From: Deltaproteobacteria bacterium
Lineage (GTDB): Bacteria; Desulfobacterota; Desulfarculia; JACQYL01
Length of the DNA stretch: 45,392 bases
Reading direction: 5' to 3'
Assembly (NCBI GenBank): GCA_016208165.1
Contig: JACQYL010000105.1
Coordinates: 1-45,392 of the forward strand
In this document: in pieces, positions 4,020 through 28,839 of the stretch
How the letters are laid out: every line of letters begins with the position of its first letter
Numbering within the stretch: position 1 is the stretch's first letter
Program-made: the position numbers and the translations under genes
Notes under the pieces: model-generated
What the model saw: the letters and a program-made list of their open reading frames with translations, nothing else
Database searches by the model: none
Told to the model about the DNA's origin: nothing

Positions 4020-4421
4020 AGGCCCGGCAGGGCGACGAAGAATCCGAGCGGGTTGCCGCCGTCTCTTTATTCGAGCCTCACGTGCAGCCCGCCCGCTTCC
4101 AGGGAACGCCGGCGTTGTTCGATTCCGATCGCGCCGGCGGCCGGGTGGATCCGTCGAACGTATCTTCCCGGTTGTCGGGCCGTAGTCCGGTCCCGGACCT
4201 TTTCTCCCCGGCCGGGCGTTCCCGCAAATGCCTCGAAAGAGGGATGGGCGTGAGATGGATCCGGTAAAGATTTGCCCTTCGATTTTGGCGTTCAAACCGT
4301 ACGATGCCTTCTCGATACCGGGCGTGGGTTTGCCGCACGGGTGTGTACATCATGTATGCGCGAAGCATTCTTCACCGTTGATCCGAAGCGCCGGACCGTC
4401 CCACGGAAAGGAATCTATGGA
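4020..4421. other. Intergenic region
   Basis: No gene is supported between the binding-protein gene and MCP1. The MCP1 frame is open for another 50 codons upstream of the chosen start, but those residues do not resemble a receptor N-terminus. No clear promoter or hairpin was identified. Confidence 0.4.
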
Positions 4422-6848
4422 ATGTTCAATAGCATCAACAAAAAAATGATCGCAATCATTTCGCTCCTTCTCCTGTGTACCGTCATACTTGGGGTGGTCG
4501 CTTTATGGTCCGTGCGAAAACAGGGAGACTTACTCCAACACGTTGCGGGCACGGCCGGTGACGTAATGGGACGAACGGCGGGGCTCGGCGAGAAGCTGAA
4601 CGAAGCCGGCGCCAACGCCGCCAAGATGGGCGACATGGCCGCCGAACTCGGCGAAGAATTCAAATCCATGCGGCAATTGATCCAGGATTCCAATGTGTCG
4701 GCCGGAGAGGCGCTTCGCACCAATCTGAGTGCACTGGCCGGAACGGCTCTAAAGCTCTTGGATCGACGGATCGACTCGGCCAAGTTCCTGGCCGATGCGG
4801 CCGTAAAATCCCGCGACGTTCGAGAAAGCGCCGCCGGTTTTTATTCCGCCGGCGTGCAGGATATGGGCGGTGATCCGGGAATCGAGTTGGGCGCCGGCGT
4901 CGATCCTTACGAAGACCAGGGCGTTTTGAACGATTTTGTTGGAGCCCTGGTATCTTCCGCGAACGCGAACTTTTACACGGTGCTCGGCCTGAAAGGCGAC
5001 CTTCGAGGCAAGGGTCTGTATTCAAACGAGGAAGTCTTGTTCAACGCGGATCTGTCCGATTCCTATCTCTTTCAAGCAGCCATTAGAGAAAACCGCCTCA
5101 CCAAGAGCATCGACCGGATAGGGAACGACTTGGCCCTGGGAGCTGCCGCTTTTTTAAAGACCGATTCCGGCTTGGATTTGGGGCTGCTTGTTTGCGGATA
5201 TTGGTTCAAATTGGATATGCTGCGCTTCCTTTCGGACGATCTGGGGGCTCGGTTGGCTCTTTTTGTCGCCGATGCCAATGGAAAGATCGGGAAAGCGCGA
5301 TATTCGACATTTGTGGATCAAAAGGGCGACATACTGGAGGACATCCCCATAGAAGATGGTCTGGCCGCTGATTTCAATCAGCGATTGGCCGCCTTGATGG
5401 AAAAGGCCCGGGGGGAAAACCAGATCCTCGACGGACGTTCCGTACGTAACGATTTTCTTCAAGTGAAAGAAGTCGAAGCCGGAGGATTGACGTATGAAGT
5501 CGCCTACCAGGGGTTGTTGGACGACGAGGGCGGGTTTTTAGGCATCCTTGCGGTAGGTCGCGACGTCACGGAAACGCTCGCTCGACAAGATGAGATCATT
5601 GTCAAGTCCGAGTCCGCGATCCAAAACTCGGAACGCATCGAGATGAACCGTGAGACGATACTCGCGGCGAACGAGCAGAGCCGGAAAGAAAACCAAGAAT
5701 TAGGCAAATCAACTCAACAGGCGAACGAAGAACTCAAGGGTACGCTGGCCACCGCCGGCCGTGTGGCCGGCATGGCGAGCATTACTACCCTGGCCGCCCT
5801 CCTGGGGGCGATTCTCATCGGAATCGCGATGTGTTTTCTGGTCAATCGGGTCATCACCAAACCGATCAAGAAAGTCATAGACGGTTTATCACAAAGCGCT
5901 ACCCAGGTCTCATCCGCCTCGGACCAGGTATCCTCCGCGAGCCGATCGCTGGCCGAAGGATCCTCGCAACAGGCGGCCTCGGTGGAAGAATCCTCGGCGT
6001 CTCTAGAGGAAATGGCTTCCATGACCAAACAGAATGCCGGAAACGCCGGTCAGGCCGACCACCTGATGAAGACGGCCAATCAGGTGGTTGCCAAAGCCAA
6101 CAGCTCCATGGACGACCTCACCAACTCCATGAAGGAGATCTCCAAAGCGAGCGAGGAGACATCGAAAATCATAAAGACCATCGATGAAATCGCCTTCCAG
6201 ACCAATCTACTGGCTCTGAATGCGGCGGTCGAGGCGGCCAGAGCCGGAGAAGCGGGGGCCGGATTTGCCGTGGTGGCCAACGAAGTGCGAAACCTGGCCA
6301 TGCGCGCAGCGGAAGCGGCTAAGAGCACGGCGGAGTTGATCGAGGAAACGATGATGAAAGTTAAGGCCGGATCGGACCTGGTGCGAAGGACCGGTGACGA
6401 GTTCACGGAAGTGGCGAAAAACGCGACCAAAGTCGGTGAACTGGTGGCCGCTATTGCCACTGCATCCGCGGAACAGGCCCAAGGTATCGATCAGGTAAGC
6501 AAGGCCGTGGCCGACATGGACAAAGTCACGCAGGAGAACGCGGCCAATGCAGAGGAATCGGCAAGCGCTTCAGAGGAGATGAACTCTCAAGCCGGGCGCC
6601 TTAAGAGGTTTGTGGGCGAGTTGGTGGCCCTGGTCGGCGGCCGGACTGCTTCGGATGGACAACGCCGTAGACCACGCGGCACAATCCGGAAAAAGAAGCC
6701 GGATCGGCATCCCGATGCCGAGGAGGCAAAAGCCCTTGCCGTTCACACGAGAACCGCTCCGGCCGACAAAACATCCGCCCACCAGCCGAAGCAAGTGGAT
6801 CCCGAACAGGTCATCCCCCTGGATGAGAAGGAATTCGATGACTTCTAA
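4422..6848 (+). CDS. Methyl-accepting chemotaxis protein (MCP1)
   Basis: This is an 808-residue transmembrane chemoreceptor. TM1 is at about residues 9-29. A long periplasmic region (about 30-450) contains a Cache-like stretch near [21 protein letters not shown]2 is at about 450-474. Only the first HAMP-type helix ([12 protein letters not shown]) is visible before the signalling coiled coil. The hairpin tip, from [20 protein letters not shown] to [17 protein letters not shown], lies at about 588-637 and is well conserved, so it should couple to CheW and CheA. The C-terminus is a Lys/Arg/Pro-rich linker ending [11 protein letters not shown], a tail shared with the other three receptors here. 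The start has GGAAAGGAA about 8 bases upstream. The ligand is unknown; the binding protein just upstream is one candidate partner. Confidence 0.88.
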
Positions 6849-20774: not shown

Positions 20775-23558
20775 ATGAAATTGACCATAGGCAAAAAGCT
20801 GGGTTTGAGCACGTTTCTATTTTCATTGGCGGCGCTGGTTCCTTTTGTCATTCTTGGGATTATGGCTGTTTCCACGGCCAGGGAGTCCTTCATCGAAGAT
20901 CGGTTCGCACAACTCGAATCCGTCAGGGGGATCAAGAAGGCGCAGATCGAGAAATTCTTCGCTGAACGCAAAGGCGACCTGGGCGTCCTGGTGGAGAACG
21001 TCCGAAACTTGCGCGAAGGGGCTTTTGACAAGCTGAAGGTGGTTCAAAGTATCAAGAAACATCAAATCGAAGGTTATTTTCAAGAGCGTATGGCGGACGT
21101 CTCCGTTTTGTCCGCCAATGATACCGTGGCCTCGGCTATGGAATCCTTTGCACAGGCGTTTAAGAATGAAAACCGTCAGACGGGAGGAGAGCTCTGGAAA
21201 GCCGTGGAAGAGTCTTACGAACCGTGGATGAAACACTATCAAAAGGAGTACGGATACCACGATCTGGTTTTGATTTGCCAAAATGGCGATGTTGTTTACA
21301 GCGTGGCCAAGGAGTCCGATCTGGGTCAGAATGTGGTGACCGGCGAGCTGAAAGACAGCCCGCTTGGAAGCTGCTTTCGGAAGGCCATGAAGGGGGCGGC
21401 GATTCAGGACTTCGAGCCTTATGCCCCTTCCAATCACCGTCATGCCGCCTTTATTGGTGCGCCGGTGAAAAACAGGGACGATACTCTGGGCGTTGTCGCA
21501 CTTCGGCTGCCCACGGCTCCTATTAACGCCATTGTGCAGGATCGCGCCGGTATGGGTAAGACCGGCGAGACCTATCTGATCGCGGAAGAGGAGGGAAGGA
21601 TCACTTTCCGGAGCGACATGAAAACCATGGGCGATGGAAAATTTGTCCTAGGGTACGACATCACGGATATAAAGACCCGTTATATCGAGGAGGCCTTTTC
21701 GGGAAAAACCGGCCATGACGTTTTCACGGATAGTAAGGGCAAGCTGGTCATGGTGGCCTTTGAGCCATTGAGCGTGCCGGGTCTCAACTGGGCCTGCATC
21801 TCCAGGATCGATCTTGAAGAAGCCATTGCCCCCAAGCTGGCAGGGGAAGAGAAGGATTTCTATGCCAAGTATATCGATGCATACGGATACTACGACCTCT
21901 TTCTGATTCATCCCGAAGGCAGGGTCTTCTATTCCGTGACTCATGAGGCGGATTACGGAACCAACATGGTGGATGGAGAATACAAGGACACCGGGCTCGG
22001 CAAACTGGTCAGGCGGGCGTTGGAAACCAAAGAATTCGGCACGGCCGATTTCGAGCCCTATGCGCCTTCCAATGGGGAACCCGCCGCCTTTATCGCCCAG
22101 CCGGTGCTCCGGGGAGCGGATGTAGAGCTGATCGTGGCGCTTCAGCTTTCCATCAAAGCCATCAACAGCATCATGCAGGAACGTTCCGGCATGGGCAGAA
22201 CCGGAGAGACCTATCTAGTTGGGAGCGACAAGCTGATGCGATCGGATTCTTATCTTGATCCCCGGACCCATTCGGTCAAAGCCTCCTTTGCCGACCCCGT
22301 CAAAGGCAGGGTGGACACGGAGGCCTCCCGTGAAGCCCTCGCCGGGAACGAGGGGCGCAAGATCGTCATCGATTACAACGGCAACCCGGTGCTGTCCGCT
22401 CACGCGCCTTTGAAAATCGGGGAAACGACCTGGGCGTTGCTGGCCGAAATCGATGAAAAAGAAGTGGTGAGCGATTCGACGGCCGCTGAGAATCTGCTGA
22501 ACCGCGTCTGGCTCATCGGCGTCATCGCGGTCATCGCCATCGTAATGGTCATTCTGTTTAACGTCCTTAATATCCGGGACCTGCTAAAGACGTTGCGAAG
22601 AATCATAGAAGGACTCAGCGAGGGCTCCGATCAGGTCTCGTCGGCCTCGAGTCAGGTGTCGTCCGCCAGTCAATCCCTGGCTGAAGGCTCCTCGGAACAG
22701 GCGGCCTCCCTCGAGGAGACATCCTCATCTTTGGAGGAGATGGCTTCCATGACCGCTCGAAACGCCGAGAACGCCAAGGAGGCCAACGATCTCATGACGA
22801 AGGCCAACGAAACGGTTCGCCAGGCCAACGACTCCATGGGCCGGTTGACATCATCCATGGAAGAAATTTCCAAGGCCAGCGAGGACACTTCGAAAATCAT
22901 CAAAACCATAGACGAAATCGCTTTCCAGACCAATCTTCTGGCCCTCAACGCGGCGGTGGAAGCGGCGCGGGCCGGAGAGGCCGGAGCCGGTTTCGCCGTG
23001 GTGGCCGATGAAGTGAGAAACCTCGCCATGAGGGCGGCGGAAGCCGCCAAGAGCACCTCCGGACTGATCGAAGGTACGCGGCGGAAAGTGCGGGACGGCT
23101 CCGAGTTGGTGAACAGGACCAACTCGGCGTTTTCCGAAGTAGCACGAAGCACCGCCAAGGTGGGTGAGCTGGTGGGGGAAATCGCCGCCGCGTCCAACGA
23201 GCAGGCCCAAGGCATACAGCAGACCAACAAGGCGGTGGCGGAAATGGACAAGGTGGTGCAGCAGAACGCCGCGAACGCCGAGGAAAACGCCGGCGCCTCT
23301 GAGGAAATGAACGCTCAGGCCGAACAGATGAAGATATACGTCGCGGAACTACTGTCACTGGTCGGTGAGACCGGAAGAGGTTCGAGCAACGGACGGGCAG
23401 CCAAACCCATTGGACGTGGCCCGGCGGTTCATGGGAGCAAAAGCCTTACGGTTTTTTCCGGCAAGGTCGGAAAACGAACGGCGATCCTTCCAAAAGCGAA
23501 AGAAATCCACCCCGAACGGATGATTCCGTTGGGAGATAAGGATCTTAGTGACTTCTAA
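20775..23558 (+). CDS. Methyl-accepting chemotaxis protein (MCP2) with duplicated sensor
   Basis: This is a 927-residue receptor. TM1 is at about 11-34. Two similar periplasmic modules follow, at roughly 155-345 and 365-565. Each contains the sequence pattern YGYxDL, a short insert, DFEPYAPSN and then a GMGxTGETYL segment, which points to Cache-like double sensing domains. TM2 ([19 protein letters not shown]) is at about 580-598. A single HAMP-like helix then leads into the signalling coiled coil. The tip, [20 protein letters not shown] to [17 protein letters not shown], is intact. The tail ends [11 protein letters not shown]. The start ATG follows ACAGGAGGAAAAAACAGG. The upstream open frame adds ten non-receptor residues and is not preferred. 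Confidence 0.9.
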
Positions 23559-24119: not shown

Positions 24120-24245
24120 TGCCGTCGGAGGATAAGAATTTTACCGATTTGAACATGGAACTTTCACAAAACCTGAAGACCGAGATCTTTTTGCAAAGGG
24201 AACATCCGGTGTCCTCAGGGTCCAAGTGGTCATGGGAGAATGGAT

Positions 24246-26243
24246 ATGAACTGGAAGAGTATGAGTGTTGGAAGGAAGATGGGACTCGGCTTCGGGTTTG
24301 TGTTAACCCTGTTGATCGTGGTGAGCGCCACGAGTCTTTTCGGCGTCAAAGGAATCGTCCGTAACGCCGATCGTGTCGCCGCAGGCCACGAGCTCAATGA
24401 GACGCTTGCTCAAAAAGAAATAGATCACCTCAATTGGGCCGCCAAACTCAATGCGCTCTTGACGGACGACAATATACACAAGCTCGAAGTTGAAACAGAC
24501 GATCACAAATGCGCCTTTGGAGAATGGCTTTATGGCGCAGGGCGAAAAGAGACTGAAAGAACACTCCCTTCGCTTTCCACTCTTCTGAAGGAAATCGAGG
24601 ATCCGCACCGGAAGCTGCACCGCTCGGCAATCGAGATAGGCGAAGTCTTCAAACAGGCGGATTCGAAATTGCCTCTCCTCTTTACGGAGAAGGAAGTGGA
24701 TCACTTGAAGTGGGCCGCCCGGATTCGAGAGGCTTTTCTCCAGCAGACTGACTCACTTGGCGTTCAGACGGATCCGACGAAGTGCGCCCTCGGGGAATGG
24801 CTGGCAACGGAACAAGCCAAGCAGATATATGAAGCCGGGGGTGCCGATTTTAGGAGAGCGTGGGATCAAATGCGGACTACCCATGACAAACTGCACCAAT
24901 CAGCCGTCGATATAGAGCAGCATCTGGCTTCCGGCAAGATCGAGGCAGCGCAGAATCAGTTCCGTCAGGTCACGGCCCCTTTATTGAATGAAACGGTCGG
25001 CCATCTGGACACACTCAAGGCTGAAGTGATGCGGGACATGGATGGGATGGAAAAAGCGAACGCCATATACGCAACCCAAACCGTTCCGGCCCTTCATGCG
25101 ACCCAAAAACTGTTGCAAGAAATCCGTGCGGAGGTAAAAAAGAAAACCGAGATCGACAATGAGGCCATGATGGACATGACGCAAGCGACGCAGCGCAACG
25201 TGACGCTTGTGAGCATTGTGGCCATCGTCGCCGGAGTGCTGTTGGCCTTTCTGATCGCCCGAGGAATTACTGCTCTTCTTAGAAGGATCTCCATTCAAAT
25301 GAAGGAGAGCGCCGAACAGGTCGCATCCGGGGCCGGGCAAGTTTCCTCGGCTAGTCAGTCTCTGGCGGAGGGGACTTCCGAGCAGGCCGCATCCATTGAA
25401 GAGACGTCTTCGTCCATGGAAGAGATGGCTTCCATGACCAAACAGAACGCGGACCATGCCGAAGAGGCGAATGTCATAATGAAGGATACAAATCAGATCG
25501 TGAGCAAGGCGAACCGGTCCATGTCGGAACTGACCGAATCCATGGCGGAGATATCCAGGGCCAGCGAAGAGACCCAGAAGATCGTCAAGACCATTGACGA
25601 AATCGCCTTCCAGACGAATCTCCTGGCCTTGAACGCGGCGGTTGAGGCGGCCCGGGCGGGGGAAGCGGGGGCAGGCTTCGCCGTGGTGGCCGATGAGGTG
25701 CGTAACTTGGCCATGAGAGCGGCGGACGCGGCTAAAAACACGGCCAATTTGATTGAAAGCACGGTCAAAAAGGTCAAGGACGGCACGGAACTGGTGAGTG
25801 CCACTAATGAAGCGTTTTCTCAAGTGTCCGAGAGCTCCTCGAAAGTCGGTGGACTGGTGGCCGAGATCGCCGCAGGCTCGAACGAGCAGGCCCAGGGCAT
25901 CGAGCAGGTCAACAAAGCGGTGACGGAAATGGATAAGGTTGTCCAACGCAATGCGGCCAATGCCGAGGAAAACGCCGGCGCGGCGGAAGAGATGAGCGCC
26001 CAATCGGAGCAGATGGCGGTATACGTGGCCGAATTGATGGCGCTGGTCGGCGGAAGCGGTAAGGGTTTAAGCAACGGTCGCAGCGGCAAGGTCGCTCCAC
26101 ACAACGCGCCGGCGCGTACACATCGGCGTCCGGCGTCCTCTTCAGGCAAAGTCGGAAAAAAGACGGCGGTCCTTCCCAGGGGAAAGGAAGTTCATCCCGA
26201 GCAGATGATTCCGCTGGAAGATAAGGATCTTAGTGACTTCTAA
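24246..26243 (+). CDS. Methyl-accepting chemotaxis protein (MCP3) with two CZB zinc-binding domains
   Basis: The protein has 665 residues. TM1 is at about 11-33. Next come two CZB domains, each with the full 3-His/1-Cys ligand set: H61, C89, H121, H125 (motif HLNW ... CAFGEWL ... HRKLH) and H153, C180, H213, H217 (HLKW ... CALGEWL ... HDKLH). TM2 is at about 319-339, then a short linker and a complete signalling coiled coil with an intact tip, [20 protein letters not shown] to [17 protein letters not shown]. The tail ends [14 protein letters not shown] domains are usually cytoplasmic; here they lie between the two membrane helices and should be periplasmic. The start at 24246 has GGGAGA six bases upstream; the ATG at 24240 abuts it. 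Confidence 0.9.
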
Positions 26244-26853: not shown

Positions 26854-28839
26854 ATGTTAAAGCGCCTTTTATCCCGTAGTCTTCGGTTCAAAATCCTGTT
26901 CGGATTGCTCTTGTCATTGGCGCCCTTGCTCGCCATCGTGGGCATTACCTACTATTCCGCACTGAGTACGGCGGAGAACAGTAAACGTATCATGAACATC
27001 CTCAGCCGGAGCGGGGCCAGGGAAATCGACACGTTCATCGAAACGCAGAAAACGCGGTTCCTGAATTGGACCGCAAAGGACATATATGGCATGGCCATCC
27101 AGTTCCAAACCACGAACATGGAAGACAAGTTCTCATCCTACCTCGAAGAGGATCCTGGTTTTTCTTTGCTAATGCTGGTGGATATGGAGGGAAAAGTGCT
27201 CGTAACGGCCTCCGCGGGAGCTCGGAAGGACGAAGCCAAGGGAAGATTCCTTGGGCGGTCCCTCGAGGGAGTGTCCGAACTTTCCGATAAGCCCCCACGG
27301 TCCGCCGCCCTGGCAAAGAGTGCTCTTGTTAAAGAGATCCTCCCAGGGTCCGGACATACGTTTATGTTCAGTTTCAAGACTGCGAACTTTGAGCGCGAGC
27401 CCAACGGGTACTTTATCGCATTTGTGGACTGGGCAAAGGTACAGGAAAAAGTCAACACTCTGCATGAGGAAATGAAAGGGAATGGGTTTAACAAGCTCAA
27501 CATCGCCGTCTTGAACCGATCCTCCGGTTTAGCGCTCAGCCACTCGGACGAGAAAATGACCGGCAGCTCCCTGGAAATGCCGGATTCACTTAAAGCGTGG
27601 CTGCAGGGAACCGAAAGCGGGCAGGTGCGCGGTTTCGAATTCGGAAAAAAGAGCGAATACCTCACCTTCTATCCGATCCTCAGTCCCGAGGGACTTTTCG
27701 ACGAGAAAGGCCGCGATCGAAATCATTCCGATCTCTGTTTCACGGTGTCTGTAGATCGAGCCGACATCATGTCCGACGTCCGGAGAATCCTGTGGGCGTC
27801 CGGCGGGGTTGCCGGGATCGGCGCCGTTGTCGTGGTGCTGATCGGTCTGTTCATCGTCCGCCTGATCTCCAGGCCTCTCGACCGCATTATTGGAGGTTTA
27901 GGCGAAAACTCGAACCGGTTGGCCTCCTCTTCCGAAAAGGTGACCTCGGCCAGTCAGTCAGGAGCCGAGGGCGCTTCAGAGCAGGCGGCTTCACTCGAGG
28001 AGACGTCTTCGTCCATGGAACAGATGTCTTCCATGACGGAACAGAACGCCGTCAATGCCCAGCAGGCCAATCATCTCATGAATCAGGCGAATGAGGTGGT
28101 GTCCCGGGCCAACGAGTCCTTGGCCCAGCTTACAGCGTCCATGATCGAGATATCCAAAGCCAGCGAAAAGACGTCCAAAATCATCAAGACCATTGATGAA
28201 ATCGCCTTTCAAACCAATCTGCTGGCTTTGAACGCGGCCGTTGAAGCGGCTCGAGCGGGGGAAGCCGGAGCCGGATTCGCGGTAGTGGCGGACTAGGTCA
28301 GAAATCTGGCCAAGCGGGCAGCCCAGGCAGCCAGGGACACGGCCGGCCTCCTCGATGGAACAGTGAAAAAGATCAAGGAAGGTTCCGACCTGGTAACCAG
28401 AACCAACGACGCGTTCTCCCGAGTATCCGAGAGTTCGTCCAGGGTCGGCGAACTGGTGGCCGAGATCGCAGCCGCCTCCAAAGAGCAGGCTCAGGGCATT
28501 GACCAGGTGAGCAAGGCCGTGGCTGAAATGGACAAGATCACCCAGCGGAATGCTTCCAACGCCGAGGAGAACGCAGGCGCCGCCAAGGAAATGAATGTTC
28601 AGGCCGATCAGATGGCGGGATACGTGGCGGAACTCATGTCCCTGGTCGGCGGAAGCGGCAGGCGATCGAGCAACGGTCATGGCGCGGTCGTTCAGCAAGG
28701 CCTGGCGGTTCGCAGGAATAAAACCCTTGCCGCCGCGTCCGGCAAACTCGGAAAAAGCACGGCGACCGTTCCCAAAGCGAAGGTACTCCATCCCGGGCCG
28801 ATGATTCCGTTGGAGGATAAAGATCTCAACGACTTCTAA
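26854..28839 (+). pseudogene. Methyl-accepting chemotaxis protein (MCP4), interrupted by an in-frame TAG
   Basis: One continuous frame of 661 codons encodes a receptor, except for TAG at 28294-28296 (codon 481). TM1 is at about 15-35. A Cache-like sensor ([35 protein letters not shown]) extends to about 310. TM2 ([21 protein letters not shown]) is at about 313-333. The signalling region then begins. The stop replaces the glutamate of VADEVRNLA, which the other three receptors keep as GAA or GAG, so a single G-to-T change explains it. After the stop the frame is intact to a normal tail, [11 protein letters not shown]. Without read-through the product lacks half of the hairpin and could not signal normally. 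The start has AAAGGAG upstream. A sequencing error is possible. Confidence 0.85.

Follow-up and report, generated by a model that had tools for sequence, protein, structure and literature searches.

On balance, the evidence favors reading the gene at positions 24,246 to 26,243 of the window (i.e., the whole 45,392-nucleotide stretch of DNA analysed here) as a membrane chemoreceptor whose outward sensor is a stack of two nested CZB bundles carried on one shared return helix without HAMP, and which is driven by metal or redox state. The gene and its two modules are as follows:

24246..26243, + strand: CDS, 665 aa plus stop, for the membrane chemoreceptor and its two periplasmic CZB modules (Pfam CZB twice and MCPsignal)
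24426..24638, + strand: CZB module 1 (proximal), residues 61-131 (PF13682, 59.1 bits; ligands H61, C89, H121 and H125)
24702..24914, + strand: CZB module 2 (distal), residues 153-223 (PF13682, 47.7 bits; ligands H153, C180, H213 and H217)

The original prediction, made from the letters alone, had seen two complete CZB domains here, each with all four 3-His/1-Cys ligands, and had proposed a PF13682 search of the product. That search bears the reading out: both copies score over the curated cut-off of 29.4 bits, the whole protein reaches 95.5 bits (E 2.4e-27), and all eight ligands are present. C89 and C180, both predicted metal ligands, are the sole cysteines of the product, and each sits in a CxxGxW motif (CAFGEWL and CALGEWL, respectively) with Ala after the ligand Cys, a position dominated by A, G or S in the relatives. 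There is also an in-frame ATG at 24240, six bases upstream; the start at 24246 is preferred because GGGAGA at 24234-24239 suits it better. Promoter and terminator sites around the gene were at chance level.

The topology of the product follows from three further features:

24291..24347, + strand: TM1, residues 16-34, N-terminus cytoplasmic (hydropathy peak 2.26; positive-inside over relatives)
25200..25256, + strand: TM2, residues 319-337 (hydropathy peak 2.95)
25482..25940, + strand: Tsr-like signalling domain of the MCP type (PF00015), residues 413-565 (151.5 bits; aligns with Tsr 265-513)

Only two hydrophobic segments of TM strength, these same residues 16-34 and 319-337, are found in the product, and the CZB pair does lie between them, although TM1 spans about residues 16-34 and not 11-33 as first proposed. 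The loop between the TMs is placed outside because the MCP signalling domain follows TM2, and the positive-inside statistics, which covered 71 relatives, agree: two-module relatives carry on average 3.6 K+R ahead of TM1 and 2.6 behind TM2, vs. 1.0 and 1.6 at the ends of the loop. Hence, the pair faces the periplasm and stands in for a conventional ligand-binding domain, as had been predicted on both counts. That the sensor segment is not periplasmic, or that the receptor is non-functional, appears very improbable; the source genome is a draft of 142 contigs and a neighbouring MCP gene has an in-frame stop, but exactly two TMs with the signalling domain after the second, more K+R outside the TM pair than within it, an intact ORF, an intact paralog (a second two-CZB receptor on contig 34 of the source genome) and conserved relatives all speak against it.

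To place the receptor among its relatives, CZB loci were sampled from named genome contigs and from genomes of the same phylum. In the phylum sample, a CZB was present in 96 of 297 genomes and tandem CZBs, among the matches listed, in at least 17. The proposed search for other receptors with CZB-CZB between two TMs returned relatives in at least five phyla, with tandem-CZB receptors in Thermodesulfobacteriota, Planctomycetota, Bacteroidota, Pseudomonadota and Kiritimatiellota. Adjacent CZB copies are spaced by exactly 92 aa in 21 of 27 pairs and by 90-91 aa in five more, and because this strict register recurs in many unrelated genomes, and given the Pfam scores, a chance or low-complexity match was rejected. 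A recent tandem duplication in the source genome was also rejected: copies within a protein are about one-third identical on average, and in a tree of 123 modules (about 75 residues each, with many forks unresolved) the copies cluster mainly by position, across phyla, and not by protein. Mean identity among the copies in two-module proteins is 46% for proximal and 32% for distal modules, module 1 being the best conserved.

The number of CZBs between the TMs varies from one to three among the receptors, whose lengths follow a rule. TM1 lies at a constant distance from the first CZB (median 45 residues), and the stretch between the last CZB and TM2 has medians of 59 residues with one module (n = 35), 95 with two (n = 28) and 130.5 with three (n = 8). 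ORFs fetched later obey the same rule (doubles 93-98, 7/7; triples 130-131, 3/3; singles 52-60, 4/5); this second batch was not used to see the rule and came from the same phylum sample, that is, it represents a repeat test that is not fully independent. Its sole exception is the single L107, with the CZB distal in a two-bundle scaffold. Among singles that break the rule, L107 (1283-2500) and L055 (928-2200) have their CZB as the distal module over a non-CZB lower bundle, and L082 and L086 carry a Gly-rich insert. In L107, positions 1-134 of the 181 in the PF12729 (4HB_MCP_1) profile match immediately ahead of the CZB; this cut at 134 fits insertion of the CZB before helix 4 of an ordinary bundle, for which L107 provides independent support at the sequence level. 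A different arrangement was observed in L023 (4893-7358), where two periplasmic CZBs of one receptor are separated by a Cache domain (sCache_2, residues 177-315); this apparent outlier keeps the return length at the two-module value despite the Cache domain.

The segment that returns from the last CZB to TM2 has its own periodic features:

24939..25199, + strand: return helix, periplasmic part, residues 232-318 (AlphaFold2 helix 232-363; length rule)
24960..24986, + strand: return motif of the distal module, F239-R-Q-V-T243-A-P245-L-L (76 residues before TM2; aligns with the last helix of the DgcZ CZB)
25068..25094, + strand: return motif of the proximal module, Y275-A-T-Q-T279-V-P281-A-L (40 residues before TM2, 36 after the first motif)

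Across the relatives, TM2 is preceded by copies of the motif (roughly [FY]xxxTxPxL) some 39-40, 75-76 and 111-112 residues ahead of it, with one copy per module every 36 residues in the clearest cases. Autocorrelation of 46 return segments gave a sole peak at lag 36 (mean BLOSUM62 +0.18); the other lags score between about -0.4 and -0.9, and shuffled segments reached at most -0.53. The sensor region is predicted by the structural models described below to take in the return helix 232-318 as well, which would complete both CZB bundles.

AlphaFold2 modeled residues 1-365 (26 sequences) with a pLDDT of 92.8, placing helices at 8-73 and 108-134 in module 1 and at 142-166 and 200-228 in module 2, with short helices between, followed by one unbroken helix at 232-363. 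The model of the three-module relative L064 (8 sequences; pLDDT 86.2) has the same pattern three times and a return helix at 319-423. Chemoreceptors work as dimers; these models are metal-free monomers. With VIA-align, residues 138-263 of the model superpose on the DgcZ CZB (PDB 3t9o) with Z 13.5 and rmsd 2.4 Å over 116 residues, a score to be read with the ease with which helical bundles score in mind, since it is barely above the reach of unrelated helical bundles and is equaled or bettered by other 4HB sensors. The DgcZ CZB falls on residues 226-350 of the three-module model, and in both models it covers the distal module together with the beginning of the return helix. For 8bsb, a single-bundle sensor of 161 residues, the alignment stretches over residues 26-315 with only 155 residues matched, a spread that is as expected if an inserted module splits the lower bundle. 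These Z scores support the nested fold but fall short of proof. Foldseek vs. the PDB had no match at E <= 0.001, the top hits being generic coiled coils, and the structural claim consequently rests on VIA-align and the sequence rule. The best PDB match of the two-module family profile was 3t9o (weak, E 0.011); in this alignment all four ligands correspond, and the C-terminal helix of DgcZ falls on the return motif. Taken as models, these structures indicate nested four-helix bundles, in which each extra module would be inserted before helix 4 of the module below.

In the alignment to Tsr, residue 347 pairs with Tsr 265, which is past the HAMP of Tsr, and TM2 ends near residue 337, about 10 residues earlier. 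The offset from TM2 to the hairpin tip is 131 residues vs. 193 in L030, a one-module relative with a Pfam HAMP; it is 129-133 in all 11 three-module receptors and in 23 of the 31 scorable two-module ones, and larger in the rest. No PF00672 match was found in the window protein. Because the Tsr alignment starts after the HAMP and the offset is short, the receptor lacks HAMP, a domain whose presence after TM2 is usual in MCPs but not universal and hence not defining. According to the model, the return helix would lead straight on into the coiled coil that controls the kinase.

Judging by its anatomy and by the CZBs already studied, the receptor is most likely a periplasmic sensor of zinc availability and/or redox state that drives flagellar chemotaxis. 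In the scheme that follows, we infer which metal is bound, what the stimulus is, how the parts move and in which direction the receptor responds. TM1 would rise into module 1, and module 2 would interrupt module 1 between its helices 3 and 4; one return helix would then descend past module 2 and next past module 1, lending each its helix 4, and continue via TM2 into the kinase-control coiled coil without HAMP. Each module would hold one metal ion, most likely Zn2+, by three His and one Cys. Gain or loss of the metal, or periplasmic oxidation of the metal-bound thiolate, may alter how the modules pack on the shared return helix, and this change would pass through TM2 to CheA and so to the swimming bias. 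The two metal sites should be about 54 Å apart (36 helix residues x 1.5 Å; not from coordinates), and any coupling between them would therefore be mechanical, via the return helix.

The main rival to this reading is that zinc or another metal merely holds the bundles together while the receptor senses something else, i.e., a small molecule within the bundle or a solute-binding protein that docks on the tall stack. The periplasmic sensors of four-helix or HBM type, Tsr, MCP2201, McpS and NarQ, to which the model aligns, do bind small ligands, and some distal modules (L066, L031) lose ligands yet retain the scaffold; of the 57 distal modules, 3 have a ligand that is missing or fails to align, so that metal binding need not extend to every module. 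However, the ligands are the most conserved module positions while the others diverge widely, the HCHH set being intact in 86 of the 87 proximal modules and 54 of the 57 distal ones among relatives, counts that carry a bias toward intact ligands because the relatives were found partly by patterns from the conserved CZB core. Further, the sequences showed no second patch of extreme conservation beyond the CZB core, and the metal site is the sensor in the characterised CZBs of DgcZ, TlpD and McpA (PMC8262984 and PMC13370339). Hence, we regard a purely structural metal as unlikely. How CZBs sense is itself debated (PMC6715182, PMC8262984 and PMC13370339), between thiolate oxidation and response to the zinc pool.

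Many of the relatives come from sediments and sulfate reducers, judging from record titles, and it is conceivable that the sites hold a periplasmic metal other than zinc, e.g., Cu(I), Fe(II) or Ni(II), which would make the protein a copper or iron taxis sensor. Zinc precipitates as sulfide in such habitats, and a 3-His/1-Cys set could take other soft or borderline metals. We consider this quite unlikely, however, as the characterised CZBs that use this ligand set bind Zn(II), the affinity of DgcZ being sub-femtomolar (PMC8262984).

A broader extension of the preferred zinc/redox reading, which we offer as tentative and somewhat doubtful, is that the family represents an expandable sensor, growing by nested insertion at the tip (of CZBs, and even of Cache in L023), adding a 36-residue return piece per CZB, and thereby carrying one to three metal sites on a lever without HAMP, with the number of modules setting the sensitivity or range of an outward zinc/redox response.

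The gene sits in a cluster of MCP genes and not in a che operon. The source genome has one CheA, three flagellin and 13 MCP signalling-domain matches, and CheW, CheA, CheB or a response regulator adjoins 8 of the roughly 22 tandem-CZB loci with readable flanks. The neighbouring MCP gene at 26854-28839 of the window is interrupted by an in-frame TAG at 28294-28296, which falls shortly after the hairpin tip (FAVVAD*VRNLA), and either is a pseudogene or contains a sequencing error. The MCP products of 4272-6848, 20775-23558, 24246-26243 and 28363-28839 have a common C-terminal tail, ...IPL.(D/E)K(D/E)(F/L).DF; that of 4272-6848 (EFDDF) alone fits the aromatic CheR/CheB pentapeptide pattern, the other three having Leu. 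Elsewhere, the closest relative by score (L005, 2677-3960; 52% identity) lies on a 6-kb contig and adjoins a Rep3 plasmid initiator, which suggests that this tandem-CZB receptor is plasmid-borne, and at L016 (8306-10576) a three-CZB receptor has as neighbours a gene for CheW and another MCP, whose sensor is of the HBM type. In L030 (4890-6920, Desulfospira joergensenii) and L032 (4743-6899, Desulfosarcina cetonica), an inter-TM CZB is joined by a cytoplasmic C-terminal CZB (both Pfam); such receptors might possibly compare metal or redox state across the membrane.

The CZB systems studied in PMC6715182, PMC8262984 and PMC13370339, namely TlpD, McpA and DgcZ, are cytoplasmic. With an outward tandem CZB, metal and redox sensing become testable without the cellular zinc buffer in between, and the series of one, two and three modules amounts to a natural experiment in signal transfer along a single membrane-crossing helix that has no HAMP. 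The length rule could also serve as a design rule for metal-responsive receptors.

Perkins et al. 2021 (PMC8262984) count 384 putative periplasmic CZBs (about 3.9%), located in the N-terminal part of membrane chemoreceptors, with the residue after the Cys being Ala or poorly conserved rather than Arg. A premise that known CZBs are all cytoplasmic is not supported by this; the idea of an outward-facing CZB sensor in the original prediction was correct, but such a sensor is not new, the class being already known though uncharacterised. The window gene, with its extracytoplasmic N-terminal CZBs and Ala after the ligand Cys, is probably a two-module member of this group. The main-text passages covered say nothing of tandem or triple copies, of a module rule, of a shared return helix or of the absence of HAMP. 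No description of tandem periplasmic CZBs was found among the open-access papers searched, including the main texts of PMC8262984, of PMC12871147 (a preprint on the TlpD structure) and of PMC13370339 (a 2026 preprint on McpA). Therefore, while outward-facing CZB receptors are already known, the building rule of one, two or three modules, with nested, countable modules on one HAMP-less helix, is the part not found described.

Like the window protein, TlpD and McpA couple a CZB with a 3-His/1-Cys site to an MCP signalling domain, but they are soluble and cytoplasmic with one C-terminal CZB, as opposed to two TMs and two outside CZBs at the N-terminal side. The ligands of the modules align with those of the DgcZ CZB (3t9o), whose four-helix fold they are predicted to adopt, whereas DgcZ itself is a diguanylate cyclase of the cytoplasm and has a single CZB. 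The 4HB_MCP sensors of Tsr, Tar and MCP2201 also place a four-helix bundle between two TMs; these, however, are single bundles without a metal site and usually with HAMP next. PF12729 (4HB_MCP) scores 24.8 bits in the window protein, below its cut-off of 27 and over the TM1 region only, and matches 14 of 26 family members at E <= 0.01. For HBM (PF16591), the window protein gave no match at E <= 1, and 26 two-module proteins gave none at E <= 0.01. HBM sensors such as McpS (2yfa/2yfb) stack two helical bundles between the TMs with common long helices, an arrangement that the model would resemble (model vs. 2yfa: Z 11.9, rmsd 8.5 over 220 residues); in contrast to HBM sensors, each module of the window receptor is a CZB with its own predicted metal site, and some of its relatives have three such modules.
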